Source of the DNA: Pseudomonadota bacterium
GTDB lineage: Bacteria; Pseudomonadota; Alphaproteobacteria; UBA8366
Length of the DNA stretch: 64,000 nucleotides
Direction: 5' to 3'
Assembly: GCA_036339585.1 (NCBI GenBank)
Contig: JAYZAS010000002.1
Location: 1-64,000, forward strand
Shown here: in pieces, positions 39,007 to 54,583 of the stretch
How the letters are laid out: each line of letters opens with the position of its first letter
Position numbering within the stretch: position 1 is the first letter of the stretch
Program-made: the position numbers and the translations under genes
The notes under the pieces: generated by a model
What the model was told of the DNA's origin: nothing
The model's database searches: none
The model's input: only the letters and a program-made list of their open reading frames with translations

Positions 39007-41163
39007 ATGACCAAACCTAACGATATATTTAAGACTTGCACAAAAGACGATTGGGAAAGGCGCGCTCAAAAAGAATTGGGCGACGGTGCAACAGAATCAT
39101 TGAACTGGTCGACCCCAGAGGGTGTGCCAATTAAATCTCTTTACACAGCTGCAGACCTAGATTCACTCGATCATCTAAATTCTATGCCTGGATTTCCACC
39201 ATTCATACGGGGCCCTCGGGCGACCATGTATACAGGAAAACCTTGGACAATTCGACAGTATGCGGGCTTTTCCACGGCTGAGGAGTCAAATCAGTTTTAT
39301 CGTAAGTGTCTTGCTGCAGGACAAATGGGTTTATCCATAGCATTTGATCTCGCTACCCACCGTGGCTATGACTCCGATCATCCGCGGGTGATTGGCGATG
39401 TAGGAAAAGCAGGTGTCGCAATTGACTCAGTCGAGGACATGAAGATTTTATTTGATGGTATACCATTAGAAAAAATGAGCGTTTCAATGACAATGAATGG
39501 CGCAGTGCTTCCCGTACTTGCTAATTTTATAGTTGCCGGAGAAGAGCAAGGTGTTGCGCCAGCACAGCTATCTGGAACCATTCAAAATGATATTTTGAAA
39601 GAGTTTATGGTCCGAAATACATACATCTATCCGCCAGCCCCATCGATGCAGATTGTTGCCGATATAATTGAATATACCTCAAGCAATATGCCGCGTTTCA
39701 ATTCCGTTTCCATTTCTGGCTATCATATGCAAGAAGCGGGAGCAACGTGTGTGCAAGAATTAGCTTTTACAATCGCAGATGGGATAGAGTACGTGCGCGC
39801 GGCTGTCAAAAAAGGGCTGGACGTAGATAAATTTGCACCACGGCTTTCTTTCTTCTTTTGTCTTGGAATGAACTTTTTTATGGAAATTGCTAAACTCCGT
39901 GCAGCTCGATTACTCTGGGCAGAGCAAATGCAGAAACATTTCCAACCTAAAACCGAACAATCGTTGATGCTCCGTACTCATTGCCAAACATCCGGCGTAA
40001 CCCTTACTGAACAGGATCCTTACAATAATATTATCCGCACAACTATTGAGGCCATGGCAGGCGCACTTGGCGGAACGCAATCTCTTCACACTAATAGCTT
40101 TGATGAAGCGATGGCATTGCCGAGTGAATTTTCATCGAGAATTGCGCGCAATACTCAACTAGTTTTGCAGGAGGAAACGGGAATAACTAAAGTAGTAGAT
40201 CCATTGGCAGGGAGTTATTATGTCGAAGCATTAACTGCCAGTGTAGCCTCCCACGCACGGAAATTGATCGAAGAAGTTGAGGATTTGGGTGGAATGACAA
40301 GTGCGATTGAGGCTGGCATGCCCAAACTACGAATTGAAGAAGCAGCTGCAGCGCGACAAGCTCGGATTGATCGAGGTGAGGAGGTAATTGTTGGAGTCAA
40401 CAAATACAAACCCGACCGAAAGGATCCCGTCGAGTTATTAGATATCGATGATACTTCAGTTCGAGACTCGCAAATAAAACGCTTGGAGCGTGTTCGTATC
40501 GATCGCGATAACAATCTCTGCCAGACCGCGCTCGAAAAACTTACACAAGTCGCAAAAAGCAAAAACGGTAATCTTCTGGCCTCAGCAATTGAAGCTGCAC
40601 GTGCACGAGCTACGGTTGGTGAAATTTCTCAGGCCTGTGAAAAAGTGTTTTCTCGTCATCGTGCCGCCGTGCGCTCTATCTCCGGCGTTTACGGTTCTGC
40701 TTATGCTGGCGATGAGAACTTTGCAAAAATACAGTCTGAGATTGAATATTTTCAAACTAGTGAAGGACGTCGTCCTCGAATATTGATGATAAAAATGGGA
40801 CAAGATGGGCATGACCGAGGAGCTAAAGTGATTGCTACGGCTTTCGCAGATATTGGTTTTGATGTAGATGTAGGTCCGCTTTTTCAAACTCCTGAGGAAG
40901 CTGCCCGTCAGGCAATCGAAAGTGATGTTCACATAATTGGTGTGTCTTCACAAGCTGCTGGCCACAAAACACTCGTACCTCAGCTGATAAAAATTCTTCG
41001 AGAAACGGGGGGAGACGACATTTTAGTGATTTGCGGTGGTGTCATCCCACCTCAAGATTATGAATTCTTATACAAGGCCGGAACCGCAGCGATTTTCGGG
41101 CCAGGCACGAATATTCCCGCCGCCGCAGCGGAAATTTTAAGACTAATTAAAAGCAGGAATTAA
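39007..41163 (+). CDS. scpA: Methylmalonyl-CoA mutase
   Basis: 718-residue adenosylcobalamin enzyme interconverting methylmalonyl-CoA and succinyl-CoA, the last step of propionyl-CoA use. The N-terminal barrel has [20 protein letters not shown] near 76-95 and [14 protein letters not shown] near 359-372. The C-terminal B12-binding domain has DGHDRG at 600-605 (D-x-H-x-x-G), whose histidine ligates cobalt. One chain holds both halves, so no separate small subunit is needed. The YAGFSTA form and length argue for mutase proper over ethylmalonyl-CoA mutase. The MeaB chaperone gene lies about 1.7 kb downstream on the other strand. Confidence 0.95.
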
Positions 41164-41173
41164 ATATCGGGCG

Positions 41174-42391
<1,218 letters not shown>

Positions 42392-42436
42392 TCACCAATT
42401 TTATCTTGATGCAAAATTTTTTGCCGGCTCACGTCT

Positions 42437-42458
42437 GCTTTCCCAACTCGAGGAAAGC
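42437..42458 (-). terminator. Hairpin between rpmB and tgt
   Basis: GCTTTCC and GGAAAGC form a perfect 7-bp stem with an 8-base loop four bases past the rpmB stop. No T-run follows on the transcribed strand, so it may be an mRNA 3'-end or processing hairpin rather than a strong terminator. Confidence 0.35.
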
Positions 42459-42461
42459 GGG

Positions 42462-42758
42462 TCAATCCCTAGCTTGTTTTGCAACAGCTCTTTCTAATCG
42501 TTTTTTCAGCCTTTTTGCCTCCGGCGTTAATTTACGATTGGGGGTGCCCAACAAAAAAGCATCTAGCCCGCCTTTATGCTCGATGGTGCGAATCGCTGCT
42601 GGTGTAACACGTAAGCGCACAGTTTCGCCAAGAATGTCGCTTAACACCGAACTATTTTGCAGATTTGGCAAGTACCGACGCCTCGTTTTGTTATGCGCAT
42701 GGCTCACATTATTACCAGCCTGAACGCGTTTTCCCAGTATCATACAACGGCGTGACAT
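42462..42758 (-). CDS. rpmB: 50S ribosomal protein L28
   Basis: 98-residue ribosomal protein bL28 of the longer alphaproteobacterial type. It opens [22 protein letters not shown], reading as the family's conserved Cys/Gly/Asn-His start, and carries many basic residues ([25 protein letters not shown]). No CxxC zinc pair is present, so it is the zinc-independent form. It lies between meaB upstream (83 bp) and tgt downstream (73 bp), all on the minus strand. Confidence 0.94.
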
Positions 42759-42841
42759 CTCATCTTCACCATAAATTCAAAGGAATATGGGGACTTCTTT
42801 CGCTACTTCGGAAGCCGTTTTAGGGCAGTGAACCCAGCCAG

Positions 42842-43813
42842 TCAAGCTGGTTTTCCTCCACGAAATCGACGGATCAAGGCTAAGGCCGCATTAGGCGCCG
42901 TCATTTCCCCGTTGGCAACCTTGGAACCTAAAATATTCAGCTCATCACCGTTGTCCATATCGAGGCGAAATTCGCGTTCAAATCGTTCACGAATGGAATC
43001 CCAAAGCCAAACTCCCGCTTGTTTTTGTCGAACCCGCGCGAACGTGCCATCTGCCGTCATTACACTTCGCCATTTTTCGGCAACTTTCCATATCTCATCA
43101 ATACCGGTGTTATTCAGAGCAGAACACGTAAGGACTGGCACCTCCCAATTATTTGCATTTGGCCGTAGCATCCTAATTGCACTCTGATAATTGGAAGCAG
43201 CAATGCATGCAGATTTTTTGAAATCTCCATCAGCCTTATTAACCAACACAATATCCGCAATTTCAACGATACCCTTTTTCATACCTTGCAATTCATCCCC
43301 TCCTGCTGGAGAGAGAAGTAGTAAAAAAAGATCGGTCATATCTGCAACAGCAGTCTCTGATTGGCCTACTCCTACCGTCTCTACGAAAATCACATCAAAC
43401 CCAGCAGCCTCACAAGCTACCAAAGCCTCGCGGCTACGATTCCCAATTCCACCAAGTGCTCCTCCTGCTGGAGATGGCCGTATAAAAGCATTATCGTTTT
43501 TCGAAAGTTCCTCCATGCGTGTTTTGTCACCAAGAATAGAACCCCCGCTCCGTTTTGAAGTAGGGTCAACAGCTAATACTGCTAACTTATGTTCTCGCGC
43601 AAGCACGTGAAGTCCCAAACTTTCGATAAACGTTGATTTTCCGGCCCCAGGCGCTCCCGATATGCCAACTCGCATAGACTTACCGGAGTGGGGTGTTAGC
43701 TTGGCCAACAGCTCGGATGCCGCTGTTTCGTGATCGGGATTAGTAGATTCTAATAATGTGATCGCTTGGGCCAATGCCCGCCTATTGCCTGAAATCACTC
43801 CTTCATAAAGCAT
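42842..43813 (-). CDS. meaB: Methylmalonyl-CoA mutase-associated GTPase MeaB
   Basis: 323-residue G3E-family GTPase (MeaB/ArgK) that gates cofactor loading and protects methylmalonyl-CoA mutase from inactivation. The P-loop is GAPGAGKS at 53-60. Further motifs are VDPTSKRSGGSILGDKTRM near 83-101, the switch ETVGVGQSE near 145-153 and the base-specificity NKAD near 195-198. The gene starts with AGAGGTGA upstream. It serves the mutase encoded about 1.7 kb away on the opposite strand. Confidence 0.95.
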   Translation of the reverse strand: MLYEGVISGNRRALAQAITLLESTNPDHETAASELLAKLTPHSGKSMRVGISGAPGAGKSTFIESLGLHVLAREHKLAVLAVDPTSKRSGGSILGDKTRMEELSKNDNAFIRPSPAGGALGGIGNRSREALVACEAAGFDVIFVETVGVGQSETAVADMTDLFLLLLSPAGGDELQGMKKGIVEIADIVLVNKADGDFKKSACIAASNYQSAIRMLRPNANNWEVPVLTCSALNNTGIDEIWKVAEKWRSVMTADGTFARVRQKQAGVWLWDSIRERFEREFRLDMDNGDELNILGSKVANGEMTAPNAALALIRRFRGGKPA

Positions 43814-44049
43814 TCATTCACCTCTCTTATGACAGTTAATTTCTTCAGACCGCGGACTTATAAATCTATGAAGACTAGCGTTGCAACTTTCAAATACGGC
43901 GGATTGACTCATTCTTCAAGAATACGAAAGCCACTAATTTTCAATGAATGATCATAGAGAGAAAATCAAAATACAACCGCAAAGCATACGAGATTTGCTC
44001 ATTTTTTGTTATATGCAACAGTAATGAAGCCCATGCTAAACATATTGCT

Positions 44050-44616
44050 TTAAAGCTTGTCGCTGAGCAATTTCGACATAGAAAACTCGTCTACATAAGA
44101 TCCATTTACATTTAGTGACTCCCTGCGCATGCCTTCAATTCGATATTGCATTTTTTCATAAAGACGCAAAGCTCGTGCGTTATGGCTCATAACTGTCAGC
44201 TCCAATCTATGGATGCCAGCATGATGCGCAAAATGTTCGAGACCCTCCATAAGCGTTCTTCCTAACTTCTTGCCCGTATGCTCCTGCAATACACCGACAC
44301 CCACGGTAGCGGTATAACGATTACGCTGCAGTTCACCTCCCATTATAACAGCCTCGCCAACGGGAAAGTTTCCCTTCCACGCATTGAGAAGTAAGTGCCT
44401 CGGTAATTCTTGAAAACGATTGATGATCATCCGCATTTCGTCTATCGAGCCGGCTCGTTCCTCAGAACTACGCAAGAAAAAATCTGTCTCAGACAAGAGT
44501 GCGCGCCCGAAGTGAAACAAAGCTTCAGCATCATCGGCGGTCGCAACCCGGATTTTATAGTCGAAACGACCCTTAGCGTTACTCCGTGATGAATTCGGTT
44601 TAGCAGTAATAGCCAT
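44050..44616 (-). CDS. GNAT family N-acetyltransferase
   Basis: 188 residues with the GNAT fold. The acetyl-CoA loop reads LQEHTGKKLGRTLMEG (R/Q-x-x-G-x-G/A form) near 131-146, and the C-terminal motif ALRLYEKMQYRIEGMRRES near 160-178 resembles RimJ/RimL or amino-acid acetylases. It follows the Lrp-type regulator by 6 bp, so the two share a transcript. Because that regulator faces a LysE exporter, the acetyl acceptor may be an amino acid, but this is inference. Confidence 0.85.
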   Translation of the reverse strand: MAITAKPNSSRSNAKGRFDYKIRVATADDAEALFHFGRALLSETDFFLRSSEERAGSIDEMRMIINRFQELPRHLLLNAWKGNFPVGEAVIMGGELQRNRYTATVGVGVLQEHTGKKLGRTLMEGLEHFAHHAGIHRLELTVMSHNARALRLYEKMQYRIEGMRRESLNVNGSYVDEFSMSKLLSDKL

Positions 44617-44622
44617 CCGTCC

Positions 44623-45075
44623 TTACTCCCATTCACCTTCCTGAACCCCAAATACCGGCTTTTGCTCTACTACTGACGATAATACAACTGAGCTATCGGC
44701 CTGCCCGTATTCCCGAAAGCGCTCAATCAAAGATTTGAGCTCCGCGATAGATGGAGCAGCGAGCTTTATGAGGAAGCACGCTTCACCAGTAATGTGATGG
44801 CATTCCAAAACCTGCGGCAATTCTAGTGCCAAACGCGTTACTGCCTGAAACTTTGCGCTTTTACAGCTCAACCGTACAAATGCGGTGATCGGCAAACCTA
44901 CTGCATTACGCTCTAGCTTTGCATGATAGCCAAGCAGAACTCCAGTGTGTTCTAGGCGGCGAACCCGCTCTGCTACCGCCGGCGGTGATAAATCAACCCG
45001 TTTGGCTAAGGCATTAAAGGATAATCGAGCATTAGATACCAGTAGCTTTACAATATGAAATGTTTTTTCATCCAT
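44623..45075 (-). CDS. Lrp/AsnC family transcriptional regulator
   Basis: 150 residues: an N-terminal helix-turn-helix (about 5-50, LSFNALAKRVDLSPPAVAERVRRLE) and a RAM effector domain (about 60-140, with VLECHHITGEACFLIKLAAPS). Such proteins sense amino acids and often control an adjacent exporter. The LysE-type gene starts 134 bp away in the opposite direction, a classic pairing. A GNAT gene follows in the same transcript. The effector amino acid is unknown. Confidence 0.92.
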   Translation of the reverse strand: MDEKTFHIVKLLVSNARLSFNALAKRVDLSPPAVAERVRRLEHTGVLLGYHAKLERNAVGLPITAFVRLSCKSAKFQAVTRLALELPQVLECHHITGEACFLIKLAAPSIAELKSLIERFREYGQADSSVVLSSVVEQKPVFGVQEGEWE

Positions 45076-45112
45076 TTTTTACATTTATAAATTATTTGAC
45101 TTATTTTATTAA

Positions 45113-45128
45113 TTTTTTTTAAAAAAAA
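45113..45128. promoter_or_regulatory. T8A8 tract in the lrp-lysE promoter region
   Basis: Eight T followed by eight A form a perfect 16-bp palindrome inside a very AT-rich divergent promoter region. A possible -35 (TTGACT at 45096) lies just before it. Lrp-type proteins favour bent AT-rich DNA, so this is a likely regulatory zone. Confidence 0.4.
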
Positions 45129-45209
45129 GCAAATTTTTTATTTCGATATTGAAACAAAAATTTGTGGTATTAGTCGGCCCAATGTCTTTCCGAAACAAGG
45201 AAGCCGAAA

Positions 45210-45839
45210 TTGGATCTTATTCTTTTTTCAAAGGCCATAGGTATTGGGATTGCGATAGCAGCGCCCGTTGGACCTATTGCAGTAATGTGCGTTTACCGAA
45301 GTCTCAAACATGGATGGTGGCCGGGCTTCTTCACAGGGCTAGGCGCTGCCGCTGCCGATGCATTATTAGCAGCGATTTCTATTTTTAGCCTATCGGTCGC
45401 ATTACCGAAGTTGCTTGATCAAACGAACTGGTTTCAACCAGCGTGTGGAATAATTTTAATCATATTGGGCGCATTGATTTATTTAGAAAAACCGATCAAT
45501 GGTAATAATAAAACCACTGTTTTACAACTGCGTAACCTTGCCGGGAATTGGCTAAGTGCTTTCTTGGTTACAGTATTAAATCCCGCAACAATTTTTGCCT
45601 TCATAGCTGTTTTTGGAGGTTTCAAAATTGGAGATATCGCAGTGAACTCTATTCAAAAAATAACAGTCGTCGGTGGCGTTTTTGTAGGTGCGAGCATATG
45701 GTGGATCGGGCTCACGACTGCTGCGGCGCGGTTTCGCCGCGGGCTTAACCCAAAAACTATGTCGGCAGTAAATCGTTTGGGTGGAACGGTTGTTGTCGGG
45801 TTTGGTATTTTCACCATTATTGATTGGGGAGTTTTTTGA
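45210..45839 (+). CDS. LysE family amino-acid exporter
   Basis: 209-residue inner-membrane exporter with about six hydrophobic helices. The family signature AIAAPVGPIAVMCVYRSLKHGWWPGFFTGLGAA is recognisable in parts (PVGPIAV near 19-25, GLGAAAADA near 43-51), and so is VTVLNPATIFAF near 118-129. The start is TTG, backed by AAGGAA upstream. No in-frame ATG is available. It faces the Lrp-type gene, which probably activates it. The exported amino acid cannot be inferred. Confidence 0.9.
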   Translation: MDLILFSKAIGIGIAIAAPVGPIAVMCVYRSLKHGWWPGFFTGLGAAAADALLAAISIFSLSVALPKLLDQTNWFQPACGIILIILGALIYLEKPINGNNKTTVLQLRNLAGNWLSAFLVTVLNPATIFAFIAVFGGFKIGDIAVNSIQKITVVGGVFVGASIWWIGLTTAAARFRRGLNPKTMSAVNRLGGTVVVGFGIFTIIDWGVF

Positions 45840-45893: not shown

Positions 45894-48800
45894 CTATTTG
45901 TCATACATTACATCTCTGCCTAATGCCCTGCAAAGCAGTAGATAGAGTTTGCCAACATCGGCAGTCATAAATGTCGAGTGCAAGAGGTGTTCCGGATCAA
46001 CATCTTCTGCTTCTCGTAATAATGTTTCAAAGTGATCAAAATAGCGCATTACATAACGGCGCATTTCCTCCTCACGTTGAACCTTCTGAGCTATCAATGA
46101 AACAGTTGCAGAAGGCTTTTCACCGAGTAATTTGCGGGTGAATATTCCTCGATCACCCTTCACATAGCGCTTCCAATCGGCGTCCGGCACCTCTGTCCGC
46201 AGAATTCTAATGAGGTCAACAGCCGTTGAATGCAAGTCTTCAATAATGAATCGAGCCGTTTTTAAAAAAAGATTCCTTCGACCTGAGAGATCTAGCTCTT
46301 TCAATTTTTCAGCTTGATCGGCAGCGGCCGCAGCGGCTTCGGTAAGAATTGCAGCATGTTGATCAAAATGTGTGCTTGCTTCAGATGTTTTCAAAACTAC
46401 AGCATCGGTAGTCTCCAAAAGATTGCTTCGATGATTATCAACTCTCTCAGTTAAAGCGTCTATCTCAAGGCGTGCATCACCTGTCGCCTGCACCAAAGAT
46501 TGAGTTTGACTTCCCAACATTTCGCCAACCTCTCGCACGCGGACGCTCGCTTCGTCGCCGGCTTCACTTATGCCGCGAGCCTGTTGTCGCAACCCCTCCG
46601 TTAAAGTCGCCATACGGGAAGATAATTGATCGGTTGAACCATATAAATTGGTTATTTGCTCCGTGAAAACTTCGCCCACAAGTTGCATCCGTTCTGCCGC
46701 TTCTTTAGACGCCCGCATGATCTCTTTGGTTTCATTTTGGAGGGCCTCATTATTATCATTAATCTGCATGCCAGCTTGCAATGATGCTGAGGTGAGCCGC
46801 TCAGCTTGAGCATTGAAATGTTCTCCTGCGTCATTCATCAACCTCAATCCCTCCATAAGGGCCGTATTCACTGATGCGGTTTCTTTGTCGAAATTCTGAC
46901 CTGCCGCACCTAAGGTTTCGGCTACAGTACCCGCTGCCTCCAGCAAACGGGCAACCTGACGCTGCAATACATCGGATATTTCATCGGCTTGTTGTGAAGC
47001 TTGCAATGATGACTGCTTTAAAGTCTCAGTATGATGCTGGATTTGCGTATCAATCTGCTGAGACCTTTCATGCAGAAAATTAGCTAGATCCGACAAATAT
47101 CGACTATCGTTGGCCAGTGCAGCCTTCACCTCACTGGCACGCTCGCCAACATTGGTGGCCGCTTGATTCAGATCATTCGTATTTTCATTTAGCGCTTCCC
47201 GAATTTCTTTAACCTTTCCGGTTACATGGTCGGATGCTTGATTTAGTTCAATTCCTCTTTGGCGCATCAGTTCAGCTATTGAGCTAGCTTGGGCTGCAGA
47301 CCTATCTGCCGCGTCGCGCAAAGTCGCTGCCTGTTGTGTCAAAGTTGCGGCCATCATTTGCGCTTCTGTTACAGACGGCCCAAGAGCTTGGCCGATTTCA
47401 CCGACACTATCTTTAACAGCAACTGTAATCTCTGAAGCCTTTGCCTGCAAAAGAGCTTCTATCTCTCTGGCTTGTGACGCCGCATGATCGGATGCTCCCC
47501 GCAGATCTTGTGCTTGACGATCGAGTGCAGACCGCAGAGCATCTGCGCGATCTACGGCAAGATCGGTTGCCTGACCTAGTGATAGAGTTTGTTCTTGGAA
47601 CATAGCACTTAGAGCTTGAATTCGTTCGGCAGTTTGATCAGACGCTTTGGTAAGCTGCTCAGATTGCTGATTTACCGTGTCTTGCACTACCTGTGTTTGC
47701 TTAGCTATGTGCTCCGCTGTTCCTGACAGATTAATAGCCTGCGTTTTTAGGGCGCCAATCATGTTTTCAGTTTCAACGCTCGACTTTTCCGTAACATTTG
47801 CAAGGTTCTGGGACTGTTCGTTGATAACGAAAGTAAGCCGACCAATCTGTTCTTTTGCTTTATCAACTGTTACACCAATCTGCCCAGCATTGTGATTTAT
47901 TGATTCTCTTAGCCCGTGGCTAAGCAGAGTCACTTGCTGATCTACTTGGTTTTTTAGTTCATCCATTCGATGTTCAGCTGTAGTCAAAACATGATCAACA
48001 GCCTTAAACTGTTTTTCGAGCGCAACCTCGAGATGACCGGTAGCATCCGTTGCTTGCCGCGCTAATCCCACCGCCATGCGCTCAATCCGCTCGCCAGTAC
48101 GGTCAGTCATCGTACCAACGGCAGCCGATTGTTCCTCAAGGGAAGATCTCAATTTCTCGGTCATATGCCCAATTTCCTCATGGAGCTCCTCTGCTATAGA
48201 GGCGGCACGTGTCCCAACCTTCTCCGCAACAAGCTTGAGGTCCTCCGCACTTTCCGACAGGTATTTTTCCGCCTCGGCTGCTTGCTGCTCTGCATTGCGG
48301 CTAGCTTCCTGCAGATCTTCAGAGTATTGCTCGAACAATACACCAAGACTTTTTGCTTGTTCAGCTGCCCTATCCGATACACCACTCAAATCAGCTGCCT
48401 GAATTCTTAAAGCGGCGTTTATATGATCAGAATGCTCAAGAGCTGCTTGGGTAACGCGACCAAGGGCTTCGGCTTGGCCAGACACGGTAGACTCAACTTC
48501 GCCTCGCTGTTGGTCAATTTTCTTAACCAAATCTTGCAGTGTTTCAACATCAACCATTAATCTATCACGTATTAGGTGCACTTCCGCTGCAGCCTTATCG
48601 CTGGCCTGACCCAACCCAATTGTTTGAGTTTCCATCGCCTCTACTAATTTCGACATGTGTTGCGTCGCGTATTCACTAACTTGTGTTAACTCTTCAGCCT
48701 GTTTTTTAAGAAGATCGGAAACTGTTCTGACACGCCCTTCGTGTTCTTCAGCAGGATAACCCAAAAGATCAAGGTGACGGCGTAACATTTCAGTATGAAA

Positions 48801-49103
48801 GCGAACATCATGAGACCTACGAAAAGATGAAATCCCGGCCCAAAGCATGGCTACCGGCAAAGCAAACCCGGCAAACAGCATGCCCATCTCATGGGGCAAA
48901 AGCTGCACAGCAAAGTCCCACCCCAAATGCTCGTGCACATAAAACAAGCAAGTTAAAGCCCAGATCACACTGAGCCCGACTCCAAATCGAAGTATCAATT
49001 TCGCTTTGCGTTCTGTTTTTTGTGCCTCGTGTCGCAAATTGGTGAGACTAGGGCCAGATTCGATTTCATTTGCCCGGCGAAGTTTGGTCACATTATCAGC
49101 CAT
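45894..49103 (-). CDS. TipN-like membrane-anchored coiled-coil repeat protein
   Basis: 1069 residues. After a charged N-terminus come two membrane helices (about 37-55 and 72-92), a short basic region, then an almost unbroken helical repeat region (135-940), and a 129-residue C-terminal domain (941-1069) with NLFLKTARFIIEDLHSTA and EEEMRRYVMRYFDHFE. The repeats are 25 residues long. The two-helix anchor plus long coiled coil is the layout of Caulobacter TipN, the new-pole marker that recruits TipF, and a TipF-like gene lies 8 kb upstream. Alternatives are a generic cell-envelope scaffold or a methyl-accepting-like protein, but no HAMP or receptor tip is seen. It is monocistronic. Confidence 0.7.
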   Translation of the reverse strand: MADNVTKLRRANEIESGPSLTNLRHEAQKTERKAKLILRFGVGLSVIWALTCLFYVHEHLGWDFAVQLLPHEMGMLFAGFALPVAMLWAGISSFRRSHDVRFHTEMLRRHLDLLGYPAEEHEGRVRTVSDLLKKQAEELTQVSEYATQHMSKLVEAMETQTIGLGQASDKAAAEVHLIRDRLMVDVETLQDLVKKIDQQRGEVESTVSGQAEALGRVTQAALEHSDHINAALRIQAADLSGVSDRAAEQAKSLGVLFEQYSEDLQEASRNAEQQAAEAEKYLSESAEDLKLVAEKVGTRAASIAEELHEEIGHMTEKLRSSLEEQSAAVGTMTDRTGERIERMAVGLARQATDATGHLEVALEKQFKAVDHVLTTAEHRMDELKNQVDQQVTLLSHGLRESINHNAGQIGVTVDKAKEQIGRLTFVINEQSQNLANVTEKSSVETENMIGALKTQAINLSGTAEHIAKQTQVVQDTVNQQSEQLTKASDQTAERIQALSAMFQEQTLSLGQATDLAVDRADALRSALDRQAQDLRGASDHAASQAREIEALLQAKASEITVAVKDSVGEIGQALGPSVTEAQMMAATLTQQAATLRDAADRSAAQASSIAELMRQRGIELNQASDHVTGKVKEIREALNENTNDLNQAATNVGERASEVKAALANDSRYLSDLANFLHERSQQIDTQIQHHTETLKQSSLQASQQADEISDVLQRQVARLLEAAGTVAETLGAAGQNFDKETASVNTALMEGLRLMNDAGEHFNAQAERLTSASLQAGMQINDNNEALQNETKEIMRASKEAAERMQLVGEVFTEQITNLYGSTDQLSSRMATLTEGLRQQARGISEAGDEASVRVREVGEMLGSQTQSLVQATGDARLEIDALTERVDNHRSNLLETTDAVVLKTSEASTHFDQHAAILTEAAAAAADQAEKLKELDLSGRRNLFLKTARFIIEDLHSTAVDLIRILRTEVPDADWKRYVKGDRGIFTRKLLGEKPSATVSLIAQKVQREEEMRRYVMRYFDHFETLLREAEDVDPEHLLHSTFMTADVGKLYLLLCRALGRDVMYDK
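46284..48701 (-). repeat. Tandem 25-residue (75-bp) coding repeats
   Basis: Encodes residues 135-940 of the TipN-like protein. 29 full 25-residue units were counted by hand, with inserts of 15 residues after units 7, 8 and 10 and of 36 after unit 15. The usual form is Q-x3-L-x2-A-S/T-D-x-A-x2-R/Q-x3-I/L-x3-L-x2. DNA copies are diverged, so this is an old protein-level repeat, not recent duplication. Confidence 0.8.
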
Positions 49104-49262: not shown

Positions 49263-49310
49263 CCAATTTAATTAGAAAGCATGTGTTTTTTTCTACCGAA
49301 GAAGTTTTTT

Positions 49311-49784
49311 ATGATTAAGCTGAACCGAATGACTGATTATGCCGTAATGATAATAGTGCACGTCAGTAGAAGCGCAGACATCATCACTACTGCACCAAGT
49401 CTGTCCCTAACAACCGGTTTGCCATTACCTACAGTAAGAAAGATTTTGAAAAAGCTTGCTAAAAAACAATTAATAAAGTCTCACCGAGGGGTGAATGGTG
49501 GCTACTCGCAACAGCGTCCGCTCAGTCAAATCTCTGTGGCGGAAATGATAGAAGCACTGGATGGTCCAGTTGTTTTAACCGCTTGCGCGGAAGGGGCCGA
49601 AGATTCATGCAACGTTGAGTCGCTCTGCCCCGTGCGCGGGGGTTGGGATCGTGTAAACAGGGCAATACGAAATACTTTGGAAGAAATTTCGCTGGAAGAA
49701 CTGTGTATGCCATCAAAACTGCCTGAAATAGTTAAACCCGCAGATCGGGAAGAGATTAGTGGAGACTTTATCCAATGTCAGTAA
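49311..49784 (+). CDS. sufR: Rrf2-type SUF system regulator
   Basis: 157 residues. The winged helix (about 1-70: [44 protein letters not shown]) is that of the Rrf2/IscR family. Cysteines at 92, 100 and 106 match the cluster-binding trio, so it probably senses iron-sulfur status and regulates the operon it heads. ATG 49311 gives the standard family N-terminus. A longer frame starting upstream is rejected. The gene overlaps sufB by 10 bp. The symbol is by function; this is not the cyanobacterial DeoR-type SufR. Confidence 0.9.
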
Positions 49785-51229
49785 CCCTAGAAACAGCTGA
49801 GGCAGTAAAGAAAATAGGCGACAAGTATGAATTTGGGTTTGTCACCGATATCGAACTTGAAACTGCTCCAAAAGGCCTCAACGAAGACGTTGTGCGTTTT
49901 ATCTCTGCAAAGAAGAATGAGCCTGAATGGCTTTTGGATTGGCGGTTAAAAGCCTATGCTCACTGGTTGAAAATGCCGGAGCCTAACTGGGCGAAGGTGA
50001 ATTTTCCCCCGGTCGATTATCAAGATGCCTACTATTATGCGGCCCCGAAAAAAGATGTCGACAAGCCGAATAGTTTAGACGAGGTCGATCCGAAACTTCT
50101 CGAGACCTATGAAAAACTTGGCATTCCCCTCAAGGAGCAAGAAATGCTTGCTGGTGTCGCGGTGGACGCTGTCTTTGACAGCGTTTCCGTTGCGACTACC
50201 TACAAGGGGAAATTGGAAGAAGAAGGTGTAATTTTTTGCTCCATATCGGAAGCAGTGCAGAAACACCCCGAATTGGTAAAGAAATACCTTGGCTCGGTGA
50301 TACCTTATGGAGACAACAAACATGCGTGTTTAAATTCAGCAGTGTTTACGGATGGCTCATTCGTATATATACCAAAAGGTGTGCGCTGTCCGATGGAACT
50401 CTCTACGTATTTCAGAATAAATGCTGAGAATACTGGTCAGTTCGAACGGACCTTAATTATAGCCGATGAAAGCTCATATGTAAGTTACCTTGAGGGTTGT
50501 ACGGCCCCAATGCGTGACGAGAACCAACTTCACGCTGCAGTAGTTGAACTTGTAACACTAGATGATGCAGAAATTAAGTATTCTACCGTACAAAATTGGT
50601 ACCCTGGTGATGAAAATGGGATTGGCGGCATTTATAATTTTGTAACCAAACGTGGGGCCTGCCGCGGTCGTAACTCTAAAATTTCATGGACCCAAGTCGA
50701 GACAGGCTCAGCAATAACTTGGAAATACCCGAGCTGCATTCTTGAGGGAGATAATTCTGTTGGCGAATTTTATTCCGTGGCAATAACAAATAATTATCAG
50801 CAGGCAGACACGGGCACAAAAATGATCCATCTTGGTAAAAACACCCGGTCTACCATAATAGCGAAAGGCATTGCTGCAGGTAAATCTGATTCCACATACA
50901 GAGGGCAAGTCAAAATTATGCCCGGCGGAGATGGGGCCCGCAACTTCACACAGTGCGACAGCCTTCTAATCGGTGATGAATGCGGCGCTCACACAGTTCC
51001 CTATATCGAGTCACGTAATCCGGCAGCTCAAATAGAGCATGAGGCCACTACCGCTAAAATTAGCGAAGATCAACTTTTTTATTGCCGTCAACGGGGACTG
51101 TCTGATGAGGAAGCTGTAGCGCTCATTATAAATGGGTTTTGTAAAGAAGTGCTCCAGCAGCTGCCGATGGAGTTTGCTGTTGAAGCCCAAAAGCTCGTTG
51201 GCATTAGCCTCGAAGGCAGCGTTGGCTAA
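49775..51229 (+). CDS. sufB: Fe-S cluster assembly protein SufB
   Basis: 484-residue SufB, normal length. It forms the SufBC2D scaffold on which clusters are built. Family blocks include [19 protein letters not shown] near 237-255, [21 protein letters not shown] near 315-335 read in parts, and the C-terminal [20 protein letters not shown] segment. It overlaps the regulator gene by 10 bp and precedes sufC by 32 bp. Confidence 0.96.
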
Positions 51230-51261
51230 ACTTTGATGCGTAGGACAGGTAGATAACAATC

Positions 51262-52014
51262 ATGCTCGAAATTAAGAACCTTCACGTGTCCATCGACGGC
51301 AACGAAATATTGAGGGGCATCAACCTAAAAATAGAGGCTGGCAAAACATACGCAATAATGGGTCCCAACGGATCCGGAAAGAGTACGCTCTCATACGTAT
51401 TGGCTGGCAGTGATAAATACAAAATCACCAACGGGACCGTATCTTTTAATGGGAAAGATCTTCTTGAAATGGATCCGGAGCAACGCGCTGGGGAAGGCCT
51501 ATTCCTTGGGTTCCAATATCCAGTTGAGATTCCGGGTGTAGCTACTTCGACTTTTCTTAAAACAGCGCTGAATGCGGTAAGAAAATATCGCGGCGAAGAC
51601 GAACTAGATGCGATGCAATTTTTGAAACTCGTTCGTAAGAAAGCAGAAGAAATTGCGATGTCTGATGAAATGCTTAAGCGGCCCGTCAACGTTGGATTTT
51701 CCGGTGGCGAAAAAAAACGCAACGAAGTGTTACAACTTGCTATGCTTGAGCCAAAGCTAGCGGTGCTAGACGAAACAGATTCGGGGCTCGACATAGATGC
51801 CCTAAGAACAGTCGCAGACGGGGTAAATAGGCTGCGAAACCCCAAACGTTCGATGCTGGTAATTACGCATTATCAGAGGCTATTAAATTATATCGTGCCT
51901 GATGTGATCCATGTTTTAGTGAACGGAAGGATTGTTGCCACAGGTGCGAAGGATCTGGCAATTGAACTAGAAAAATCAGGCTACAGCATGTTCACCGATA
52001 ACCAAGCTGCATAA
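51262..52014 (+). CDS. sufC: Fe-S cluster assembly ATPase SufC
   Basis: 250-residue ABC-type ATPase without a membrane domain. Walker A is GPNGSGKS at 34-41, the signature FSGGEKKRNE near 150-159 and Walker B LAVLDETDSGLDID near 171-184, the last in the form typical of SufC. It dimerises on SufB-SufD and drives the shape change for cluster assembly. Position and direction place it in the SUF transcript, with sufD 18 bp further on. Confidence 0.96.
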   Translation: MLEIKNLHVSIDGNEILRGINLKIEAGKTYAIMGPNGSGKSTLSYVLAGSDKYKITNGTVSFNGKDLLEMDPEQRAGEGLFLGFQYPVEIPGVATSTFLKTALNAVRKYRGEDELDAMQFLKLVRKKAEEIAMSDEMLKRPVNVGFSGGEKKRNEVLQLAMLEPKLAVLDETDSGLDIDALRTVADGVNRLRNPKRSMLVITHYQRLLNYIVPDVIHVLVNGRIVATGAKDLAIELEKSGYSMFTDNQAA

Positions 52015-52032
52015 CTCATAAGCGCTTTTCAA

Positions 52033-53343
52033 ATGGTAGTGAAACAAAACACAGCCCGCGATCTCGCAAAGCAATATGGTGAGATACACAGGCAACTTCC
52101 GGGAAGCCATCTGAATTGGCTAAAGGCACTACGCGAACACAGCCTCAACGTTTTTGACGAATTAGGTCTGCCGACGGTTCGAGATGAGCGCTGGAAATAT
52201 ACCAACCTAAACAAAATCCGGCAGGAAAATTTTGTGCCAGCTTCTTATGTCTCTTCCAATGAAAAAATTACTCTATCATTGCAAAAATTTTCCCAGATCG
52301 ACGCCTACAAGTTTGTTTTAATAAACGGGTCATTGATTAAATCGTTATCGGATATTGATGACTTGCCAAAAGGGTTAGAGTTGAAATCCATTGATGAAAT
52401 TGGCGAAGATAAGCTGTCCAGACTTATAGATTTTGAACGCACCCCAATGGCTGCATTGAACACTGCAGCATTTACAGACGCATTATGTTTAAACATTTGT
52501 GAGAGCGCACGTATAGACAAACCTATTCATTTGATTTCGTTAACTGAACCGTCAGCTAAGCCTGTAGTCTTCCACCCTCGCTTTATGATAAACGCCGGTC
52601 AAAATAGCAAAGTAACCTTATTTGAAAGTCATTTTGGCGCTCAAAATAATAACTATTTTAGTAATTGCGTAGCAGAAATCGAACTTAGCTCAAATGCAAC
52701 CGTGCATCATTACAAAATACAGAATGACCATAAAGAGGCCATTCATATTGCTGCTACGGAAGTAAGGCTTGCAGATGGCTCTAATTACGAAAATTTTATT
52801 GTTACCATTGGGGCGAAGCTTTCGCGTAATGAAGTTAACGCAAAAATCATTGGCAGTAATGCTGATTGTCGTTTGTTGGGCATATATCTATTAAATGGCA
52901 ACCAACATGGAGATCACACAACATCCATAGACCATGCTGCACCAAATAGCACGTCCCACGAAATATACAAGGGAGTTCTCGATGATAAAGCCCGCGGTGT
53001 CTTTCAGGGCAAAATTTTGGTTCGTAAAGAAAGCCAGAGAACTAGCGGTTACCAGCTTAATCAAGCACTTCTTCTGTCGAAAGGCACGGAAGTGGACTCT
53101 AAACCAGAACTAGAAATTTATGCCGATGATGTCAAATGCTCACACGGTGCCACCGCCGGCGAACTCGATGAGGACGCATTATTTTACTTGCGGGCGCGCG
53201 GCATTAATGAAGTGGTTGCCCGAAACCTTCTTATCGAGGCTTTCATCAAATCTGCAATAGATGAAATCTCTAATCCCTTAATCCAAAAAACTTTGAGTGA
53301 GACAATTTCTACTTGGCTGTCCACAGGAAAATGTAATGACTGA
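52033..53343 (+). CDS. sufD: Fe-S cluster assembly protein SufD
   Basis: 436-residue SufD, paralogue of SufB in the SufBC2D scaffold. The N-terminal helical part (LPTVRDERWKYTNLNKIRQENF near 46-67) and the C-terminal beta-helix with DVKCSHGATAGELDEDALFYL near 363-383 are characteristic, the latter carrying the conserved His of the SufB-SufD interface. It overlaps the chosen sufS start by 8 bp. Confidence 0.95.
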   Translation: MVVKQNTARDLAKQYGEIHRQLPGSHLNWLKALREHSLNVFDELGLPTVRDERWKYTNLNKIRQENFVPASYVSSNEKITLSLQKFSQIDAYKFVLINGSLIKSLSDIDDLPKGLELKSIDEIGEDKLSRLIDFERTPMAALNTAAFTDALCLNICESARIDKPIHLISLTEPSAKPVVFHPRFMINAGQNSKVTLFESHFGAQNNNYFSNCVAEIELSSNATVHHYKIQNDHKEAIHIAATEVRLADGSNYENFIVTIGAKLSRNEVNAKIIGSNADCRLLGIYLLNGNQHGDHTTSIDHAAPNSTSHEIYKGVLDDKARGVFQGKILVRKESQRTSGYQLNQALLLSKGTEVDSKPELEIYADDVKCSHGATAGELDEDALFYLRARGINEVVARNLLIEAFIKSAIDEISNPLIQKTLSETISTWLSTGKCND

Positions 53344-54583
53344 TATTTCTAATCGTCCGTCAAAGACTTACGACGTAGAAAAAATCCGTTCGGACTTCCC
53401 GATTCTGGGAACGGAGGTGCACGGACAACCGTTTGCATTTCTTGATAGCGCCGCCTCAGCACAGAAACCCCGCCAAGTGATAGATGCCATAAGTGCCGTA
53501 TATGACTCTGGGTACGCTAATGTTCACAGGGGAGCCTATCAGCTCAGTGAGGTTGTTACCGACAATTACGAGGGTGCTCGGGACAAGGTGCAGGAATTTC
53601 TCAATGCTGAGTATCGCGGTGAAATTATTTTCACACGAAATGCAACCGAAGCAATAAACCTAGTTGCCAGTAGTTATGCACGAAGCAGACTGAATTGTGG
53701 AGACGAGATAATAATTACTGAGATGGAGCACCATTCCAACATCGTGCCTTGGCAATTGTTGAAAGCAGAAAAAGACTTAGTACTGAAAGTGGTACCGATA
53801 ACAGATTCCGGAGAGTTGCGAATGGATGTTTTCGAGAAACTTTTAAGTGAACGCACGAAGCTAGTATCATTTCCCCATATATCAAACGTGTTGGGCACAG
53901 TACTTCCAGTGAAACGCATTACAGAGCTCGCCCATTCCGCTGGCGCAGCCGTATTAATCGACGGGTGTCAGGCGGTGATGCATGAGTCTGTCGATGTTCA
54001 AAATTTGGATTGCGACTTTTATGCTTTCTCGGGACACAAGCTCTATGGGCCATCTGGTATTGGAGTGCTGTATGGTAAAAAAGAACTTCTAGATGCCATG
54101 CCCCCATATATGGGCGGCGGAGACATGATTAACACCGTTACTTTTGAAGAAAGCACATGGGCCGATCTTCCAGCAAAATTTGAAGCTGGGACGCCAGCTA
54201 TTGCGCAGGCGATTGGCCTGGGCGCTGCGATCGACTATATAAATAATATCGGCCTTGTAGCGATTGCCAGGCATGAAAATGATCTTCTTAATTATACAAC
54301 TTCTAGGCTAAATGCTATCGACGGACTTAGAATCATTGGGACTGCATCAAATAAGGTTAGCGTAATCTCAATGATCCTTGATTGTGCGCACCCCCATGAC
54401 ATGGCCACAATTTTAGATAGGTCAGGAGTTGCTATTCGCGCTGGCCACCATTGTGCCCAACCGTTGATGGATCGTCTAGGGCTTCCAGCAACTGCACGCG
54501 CCTCTTTTGGTCTTTACAATAATCAAAATGATGCTGACCAGCTATGCCAGGCATTAGAAACGGTACAGGAGATTTTTAGCTGA
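53336..54583 (+). CDS. sufS: Cysteine desulfurase SufS
   Basis: About 415 residues. This PLP enzyme frees sulfur from cysteine for cluster assembly. The PLP lysine lies in FSGHKLYGPSG, and the sulfur-carrying cysteine in RAGHHCAQPLM. The start at 53336 gives the family N-terminus (KIRSDFPILGTEVHGQP) and follows AGGAAA at good spacing. The frame stays open 39 bp upstream. With SufU as the next gene, sulfur is likely passed to SufU, since no SufE is present. Confidence 0.95.
   Translation: MTDISNRPSKTYDVEKIRSDFPILGTEVHGQPFAFLDSAASAQKPRQVIDAISAVYDSGYANVHRGAYQLSEVVTDNYEGARDKVQEFLNAEYRGEIIFTRNATEAINLVASSYARSRLNCGDEIIITEMEHHSNIVPWQLLKAEKDLVLKVVPITDSGELRMDVFEKLLSERTKLVSFPHISNVLGTVLPVKRITELAHSAGAAVLIDGCQAVMHESVDVQNLDCDFYAFSGHKLYGPSGIGVLYGKKELLDAMPPYMGGGDMINTVTFEESTWADLPAKFEAGTPAIAQAIGLGAAIDYINNIGLVAIARHENDLLNYTTSRLNAIDGLRIIGTASNKVSVISMILDCAHPHDMATILDRSGVAIRAGHHCAQPLMDRLGLPATARASFGLYNNQNDADQLCQALETVQEIFS

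Follow-up and report, generated by a model that had tools for sequence, protein, structure and literature searches.

The window analyzed here, a 64,000-nucleotide stretch of an alphaproteobacterial contig (JAYZAS010000002.1, positions 1 to 64,000), carries on its minus strand a gene for a 1069-aa membrane-anchored rod protein (45894..49103) that we assign to the TipN/GPR family. The assignment draws on the open reading frame, which stands as the earlier note had called it together with its 1069-residue product, on matches in 39 of 40 relatives, and on homology to TipN and GPR/RgsE. The window genome holds a single copy. In many relatives the gene keeps the same company (mcm, the rod-protein gene, GNAT, meaB), as it partly does in Kiloniella and Azospirillum, and this shared neighborhood favors orthology inside the order and, to some extent, outside it. 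In the window itself, positions 39007-45839 encode methylmalonyl-CoA mutase, a tRNA-ribosyltransferase (TGT), MeaB, a GNAT acetyltransferase, an AsnC-type regulator and a LysE-type exporter. Divergent from the rod-protein gene, positions 49281-54583 encode an Rrf2-type regulator followed by SUF iron-sulfur operon genes, an arrangement that among the loci examined recurs only in the nearest relatives, L087 and L094.

The protein begins with a membrane-anchor region (residues 1-120; 48744..49103, minus strand, as are all features below), delimited by alignment A2 and by hhalign matches. Hydropathy places the two membrane helices proposed earlier at residues 36-54 (48942..48998; 2.03 over 19 residues) and 73-91 (48831..48887; 1.84 over 19 residues). 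W48, P83, W88 and the motif LRRxLxLLxYPAE are conserved in alignment A2.

From about residue 121 to 934 (46302..48743) the protein is a helical rod of 25-residue units, consensus DRAAEQAREIGEALREQAEELTEAS, with one proline (P576) and neither Trp nor Cys. BLOSUM62 autocorrelation of the window protein peaks at lags 25, 50 and 75 (z = 12.7, 13.3 and 12.3), with smaller peaks at 7, 11, 14 and 18, as expected of a 7+7+11 unit. Fitted to 30 orthologues whose alignment has no gaps in the rod, a cyclic repeat model scored 405 at period 25, 225 at 18 and no more than 178 at any other period between 15 and 40. The phase jumps of this model (+10, +10, +10 and +14 mod 25) correspond to inserts of 15, 15, 15 and 11 (36-25), recovering the hand segmentation of the earlier note, which had inserts of 15, 15, 15 and 36. 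Finally, a 25-unit model trained on orthologues with at most about 38% rod identity to the window protein scored the held-out window protein at 436, whereas shuffles gave -41 +/- 11 (z = 43). The period scan and this held-out score together bear out the claim that a significant 25-residue period spans most of the rod.

Because shuffling destroys all periodicity, the informative part is the contrast between periods. On the held-out window protein, period 11 was weak (z = 3.2) and period 7 unsupported (z = 1.1 versus 43 for period 25), so the repeat does go beyond generic heptads, as had been suggested. This contrast counts against a generic filament-forming coiled coil of the crescentin, SMC or kinesin kind with no link to polarity. 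SMC models do match the coil (3.5e-5), and a Sinorhizobium meliloti relative is annotated as 'kinesin', but the SMC-type matches are restricted to the rod while the protein's two homologous ends point to another family, and we regard the generic reading as quite improbable.

The unit makes seven helical turns per 25 residues, with core positions A2, A6, I9, L13, Q16, L20 and A23, of which Q16 is the best conserved position of the unit (49% Gln). On a helical wheel the bulky residues cluster, Ala flanks them on both sides, and charged residues occupy the far side. With 25/7 = 3.571 residues per turn, above the 3.50 of the heptad and below the ~3.62 of a straight helix, the repeat implies a left-handed, long-pitched supercoil; simple arithmetic would put the pitch at about 40 nm. 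The "slightly right-handed" coil entertained in the earlier note was therefore wrong, since 25/7 gives a gently left-handed one. The same arithmetic predicts an almost straight coil for units of 29/8 and 40/11 and a right-handed one for 11/3.

These helical properties also bear on whether the rod is a coiled coil at all, or instead a series of apolipoprotein-like amphipathic helices lying on membrane or lipid. GPR/RgsE has been described as apolipoprotein-like (PMC8262873). Rhizobiales rods with periods of 11, 22 and 44 fit that description, and the window rod shares with the Apolipoprotein A1/A4/E family (PF01442) its helical, partly hendecad periodicity. The Pfam match, however, lies far below the family's curated cut-off (E 2.7e-6, 27.6 bits versus 90). 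Apolipoprotein helices have wider non-polar faces, whereas the bulky non-polar arc of the 25-residue unit (I9, L20, L13) spans only ~45 degrees, or roughly 90 when Ala is counted, and the conserved Gln sits at its edge. We consider the lipid-bound arrangement unlikely and treat the rod as a coiled coil below.

The three 15-residue inserts lie ~40 residues apart and are better read as three 40-residue (25+15) units covering residues 277-396 (47916..48275), where lag 40 is the top lag (z = 4.8). This reading is supported by whole-unit expansions in two relatives of the same order, L194 (genome G030) and L195 (genome G033). The anchor-to-anchor distance is 860 in the window protein, 1060 in L194 (+5x40 = +200) and 1220 in L195 (+9x40 = +360); lag 40 outranks all others within their enlarged zone (z = 8.3 and 10.2, respectively), and the remaining rod keeps lag 25. 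An 889-residue version in another family of the order is explained by a 29-residue (25+4) insertion.

Two further features of the rod stand out. P576 (47376..47378), the sole proline in the window protein's rod, is conserved without exception across 25 orthologues, and a helix break is predicted at residues 570-574 in a full-length AF2 model whose low confidence (pLDDT 54.9) limited its use to helix breaks. P576 may act as a hinge. In the C-terminal half of the rod, residues 746-820 (46644..46868) form the most conserved stretch (column conservation 0.69, 0.74 and 0.68, where the rod as a whole averages 0.61) and are a candidate docking site.

Rod length is nearly constant within the order. 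Across 35 relatives with matches spanning at least 490 residues, mostly at about 30-43% identity, the net length change counted from match coordinates was at most one residue in 29 (a contig edge truncates two of these, and the match covers part of the rod only in a few), and the other six carry insertions. Alignment A5 likewise has no rod gap in 22 of 24 relatives and a 29-residue insert in two. A table of length invariance within the 860-residue clade is circular, as that clade was chosen by its length, so the claim of constancy rests on the order-wide search instead. Outside the order, rod lengths differ widely. Among pairs whose C-terminal domains are 60-70% identical, a set not selected by length, rod length is the same in 82% of non-Rhizobiales pairs, a non-independent set dominated by one clade, and in none of the Rhizobiales pairs. 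Class-wide evolution of the rod in 25-residue steps found no support, with 12 of 406 distinct-length pairs at multiples of 25 versus 15.8 expected, and apparent 25-steps are partly an artifact of truncated loci in which the N-terminal model slipped along the repeats. A role as a long ruler is plausible and would fit both the near-constant length in the order and the invariant P576; the much longer rods of L194 and L195 speak against it.

The rod leads into a C-terminal domain (residues 940-1069; 45897..46286) identified by profile search and AF2. AlphaFold2, run with 45 sequences, predicts a confident seven-helix domain (pLDDT 91.7), in keeping with the compact end domain anticipated from the sequence. 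The domain is unclassified: fold searches yielded no match, the best E values being 0.46 for PDB and 0.61 for BFVD, sequence searches against PDB and viral models gave nothing significant, and Pfam has no family for it. A Pfam PNMA match (7.5e-4) occurred in one of 45 members and was taken as chance.

When 385 sampled Alphaproteobacteria genomes were searched with a profile built from the window's order only (A1), the domain turned up in 145, across the class and almost always once. It ends open frames of about 460-2750 aa; frames shorter than this occur at contig edges. A scan of named genomes located it in Kiloniellales, Rhodospirillales, Azospirillum, Ferrovibrio, Rhizobium, Mesorhizobium, Ochrobactrum and others. 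A few genomes gave two or three hits; those in G268 (three) and G138 (two) may stem from paralogues or from assembly mixture. In genome G018 a stop-ridden 28-residue scrap of the domain (C1:698713-698796) lies ~2 kb past the intact gene and is possibly a decayed partial duplication. One typical homologue of the window's clade (L085, CP051228.1) is filed under 'Mesoflavibacter sp. ih5', a Bacteroidota name; that label is probably wrong.

Both ends of the protein connect it to known polarity factors. Profiles of the window's order aligned by hhalign to Caulobacteraceae TipN with a probability of 97.0% for the anchor (E 1e-10) and 96.5% for the C-terminal domain (E 8e-10), and to Rhizobiales GPR/RgsE at 97.7% and 99.8% (E 1e-28). 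As a check, either end and the rod were also compared with Caulobacteraceae rods, and these probabilities stayed below 10%; one control of the rod against the Rhizobiales rod reached 60% on a single aligned column, which is meaningless. The TipN-like membrane-plus-coil layout noted earlier thus becomes homology at both ends, and the proposed orthologue search with the end domain recovers GPR/RgsE and TipN alike. Two N-terminal membrane helices within the homologous region, a long helical, coiled-coil part presumably on the cytoplasmic side, and the homologous C-terminal domain together make a strong sequence-based case for membership in the TipN/GPR (RgsE) family.

We linked these profiles to the characterized proteins through individual genomes. 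The S. meliloti protein annotated as 'kinesin' is 2089 aa long and matches the window-order C-terminal profile at E 1e-31; RgsE, a homologue of Agrobacterium GPR, is 2089 aa (PMC7327166). Its record (L154, CP090106.1) is labeled plasmid pSymB, spans 3.7 Mb and carries folP, petA and cytochrome b genes, and may be the chromosome. Caulobacteraceae genomes were located through MipZ, and 30 of 40 have the C-terminal domain, usually in one gene and mostly ending a ~830-1200 aa frame. In one of them MipZ is 91% identical to the solved structures 2xit/2xj4, which are of MipZ from Caulobacter crescentus, now C. vibrioides. The protein of this genome (L186), the Caulobacter copy, assigned as TipN via its genome's MipZ and not from a TipN accession, is 885 aa from its likely start. 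Published TipN is 882 aa (PMC13170164). Two candidates of similar length (L057 and L058; 881 and 886 aa) were rejected, their MipZ not being Caulobacter-like.

TipN has been called Caulobacter-specific (PMC4460556). GPR is reported to resemble TipN (PMC8546619), and distant RgsE homologues occur in Rhodospirillales (PMC7327166); both observations agree with the one-family result. Close homologues with a known role have been described (TipN, GPR), whereas in the open-access literature we found no description of a 25-residue repeat in this family. As far as we found, then, the window protein is a known family's rod variant with a previously undescribed unit.

Between the conserved ends, the rod differs in repeat type across the class. 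The 25-residue period is the commonest and prevails in the majority of members outside Rhizobiales, where z reaches 29, with unbroken-phase rods of at least 37 units in L069 (938 residues) and L122 (1030 residues). By autocorrelation, Rhizobiales rods have periods of 11/22/44 or 29, and period 29 also appears in L080, L092 and L096, named Kiloniellales. In Caulobacteraceae 25 is the top lag in most members, not all, at low z (5-7). RgsE and TipN rods both exceed shuffles under the 25-unit model, to which generic helical periodicity contributes.

We tentatively propose that all of these belong to one ancient alphaproteobacterial family of pole scaffolds with fixed ends and a modular ruler rod, in which the unit (25, 29, 40 or 11) sets twist and copy number sets the distance from membrane to docking domain. 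This wider proposal is possible rather than likely. If true, unit type would yield a left-handed, nearly straight or right-handed rod, and the C-terminal domain would be a new kind of docking domain.

Coil matches can also point elsewhere. NCBIfam ZorA_1 matches the rods of both the window protein (8.5e-5) and RgsE (L154; 1.5e-19), raising the idea of an ion-driven stator of the ZorA/MotA type that carries a long tail, as in anti-phage Zorya. The scores, 21 bits (window) and 70 bits (RgsE), are far from the curated cut-off of 190, the matches fall within the coil, and the protein has two membrane helices rather than a MotA-like set. A stator is highly implausible, and the ZorA-RgsE rod match reflects either shared coil geometry or an annotation trap.

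On balance, we think the gene is probably the window organism's orthologue of the TipN/GPR (RgsE) polarity scaffolds, although the weak 25-residue signal of TipN (z = 5.5) counts against this, and we propose the following mechanism. The anchor would hold the protein in the inner membrane. Rods would self-associate through their small and aliphatic core and the conserved glutamine to form a long, gently left-handed cytoplasmic coiled coil; about 813 residues would extend roughly 120 nm if they form one continuous helix. Tol-Pal would recruit the protein to the division site, as for TipN and RgsE, and it would be retained at the new pole. There, clients from the ParA/MipZ/PopZ-type segregation machinery and the cell-wall machinery would dock on the C-terminal domain and residues 746-820, with the rod fixing their distance.

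By analogy, a polar or septal landmark scaffold is the most likely role, and we infer localization and partners from that likeness. TipN, a marker of the new pole, binds ParA as well as recruiting TipF (PMC9178275), and the septal Tol-Pal complex interacts with TipN (PMC7403779). RgsE partners include TolQ, RgsA and RgsS (PMC7327166). Removing the last 10 residues of GPR leaves poor complementation and removing 221 leaves none, though the ring still forms when 332 residues are missing (PMC8262873). The window organism has PopZ-type, MipZ and MreB genes.

Work on GPR has treated it as a protein of Rhizobiales that contains apolipoprotein-like parts. Our data unite TipN, GPR and many unnamed alphaproteobacterial proteins through the anchor and through a C-terminal domain for which Pfam has no family, while the intervening rod changes repeat unit and copy number from lineage to lineage. 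What is gained is a definable domain for deletion, a profile for class-wide annotation and a testable ruler hypothesis for pole organization.

The window protein thus compares with two characterized scaffolds. With TipN of Caulobacter crescentus it shares two N-terminal membrane helices, a coiled-coil rod and a homologous C-terminal domain; the Caulobacter copy, L186, differs by its long N-terminal extension, its shorter rod, its weak 25-residue periodicity and the Pro-rich stretch that precedes its C-terminal domain. With GPR of Agrobacterium tumefaciens and RgsE it shares homologous ends and the order of parts, but those proteins reach about 2,100 aa, and Rhizobiales rods have periods of 11/22/44 and 29 in place of the window's 25. 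GPR/RgsE bacteria grow from the pole without MreB (PMC8546619). Since the window organism does have MreB, its protein need not act in polar growth as GPR does.
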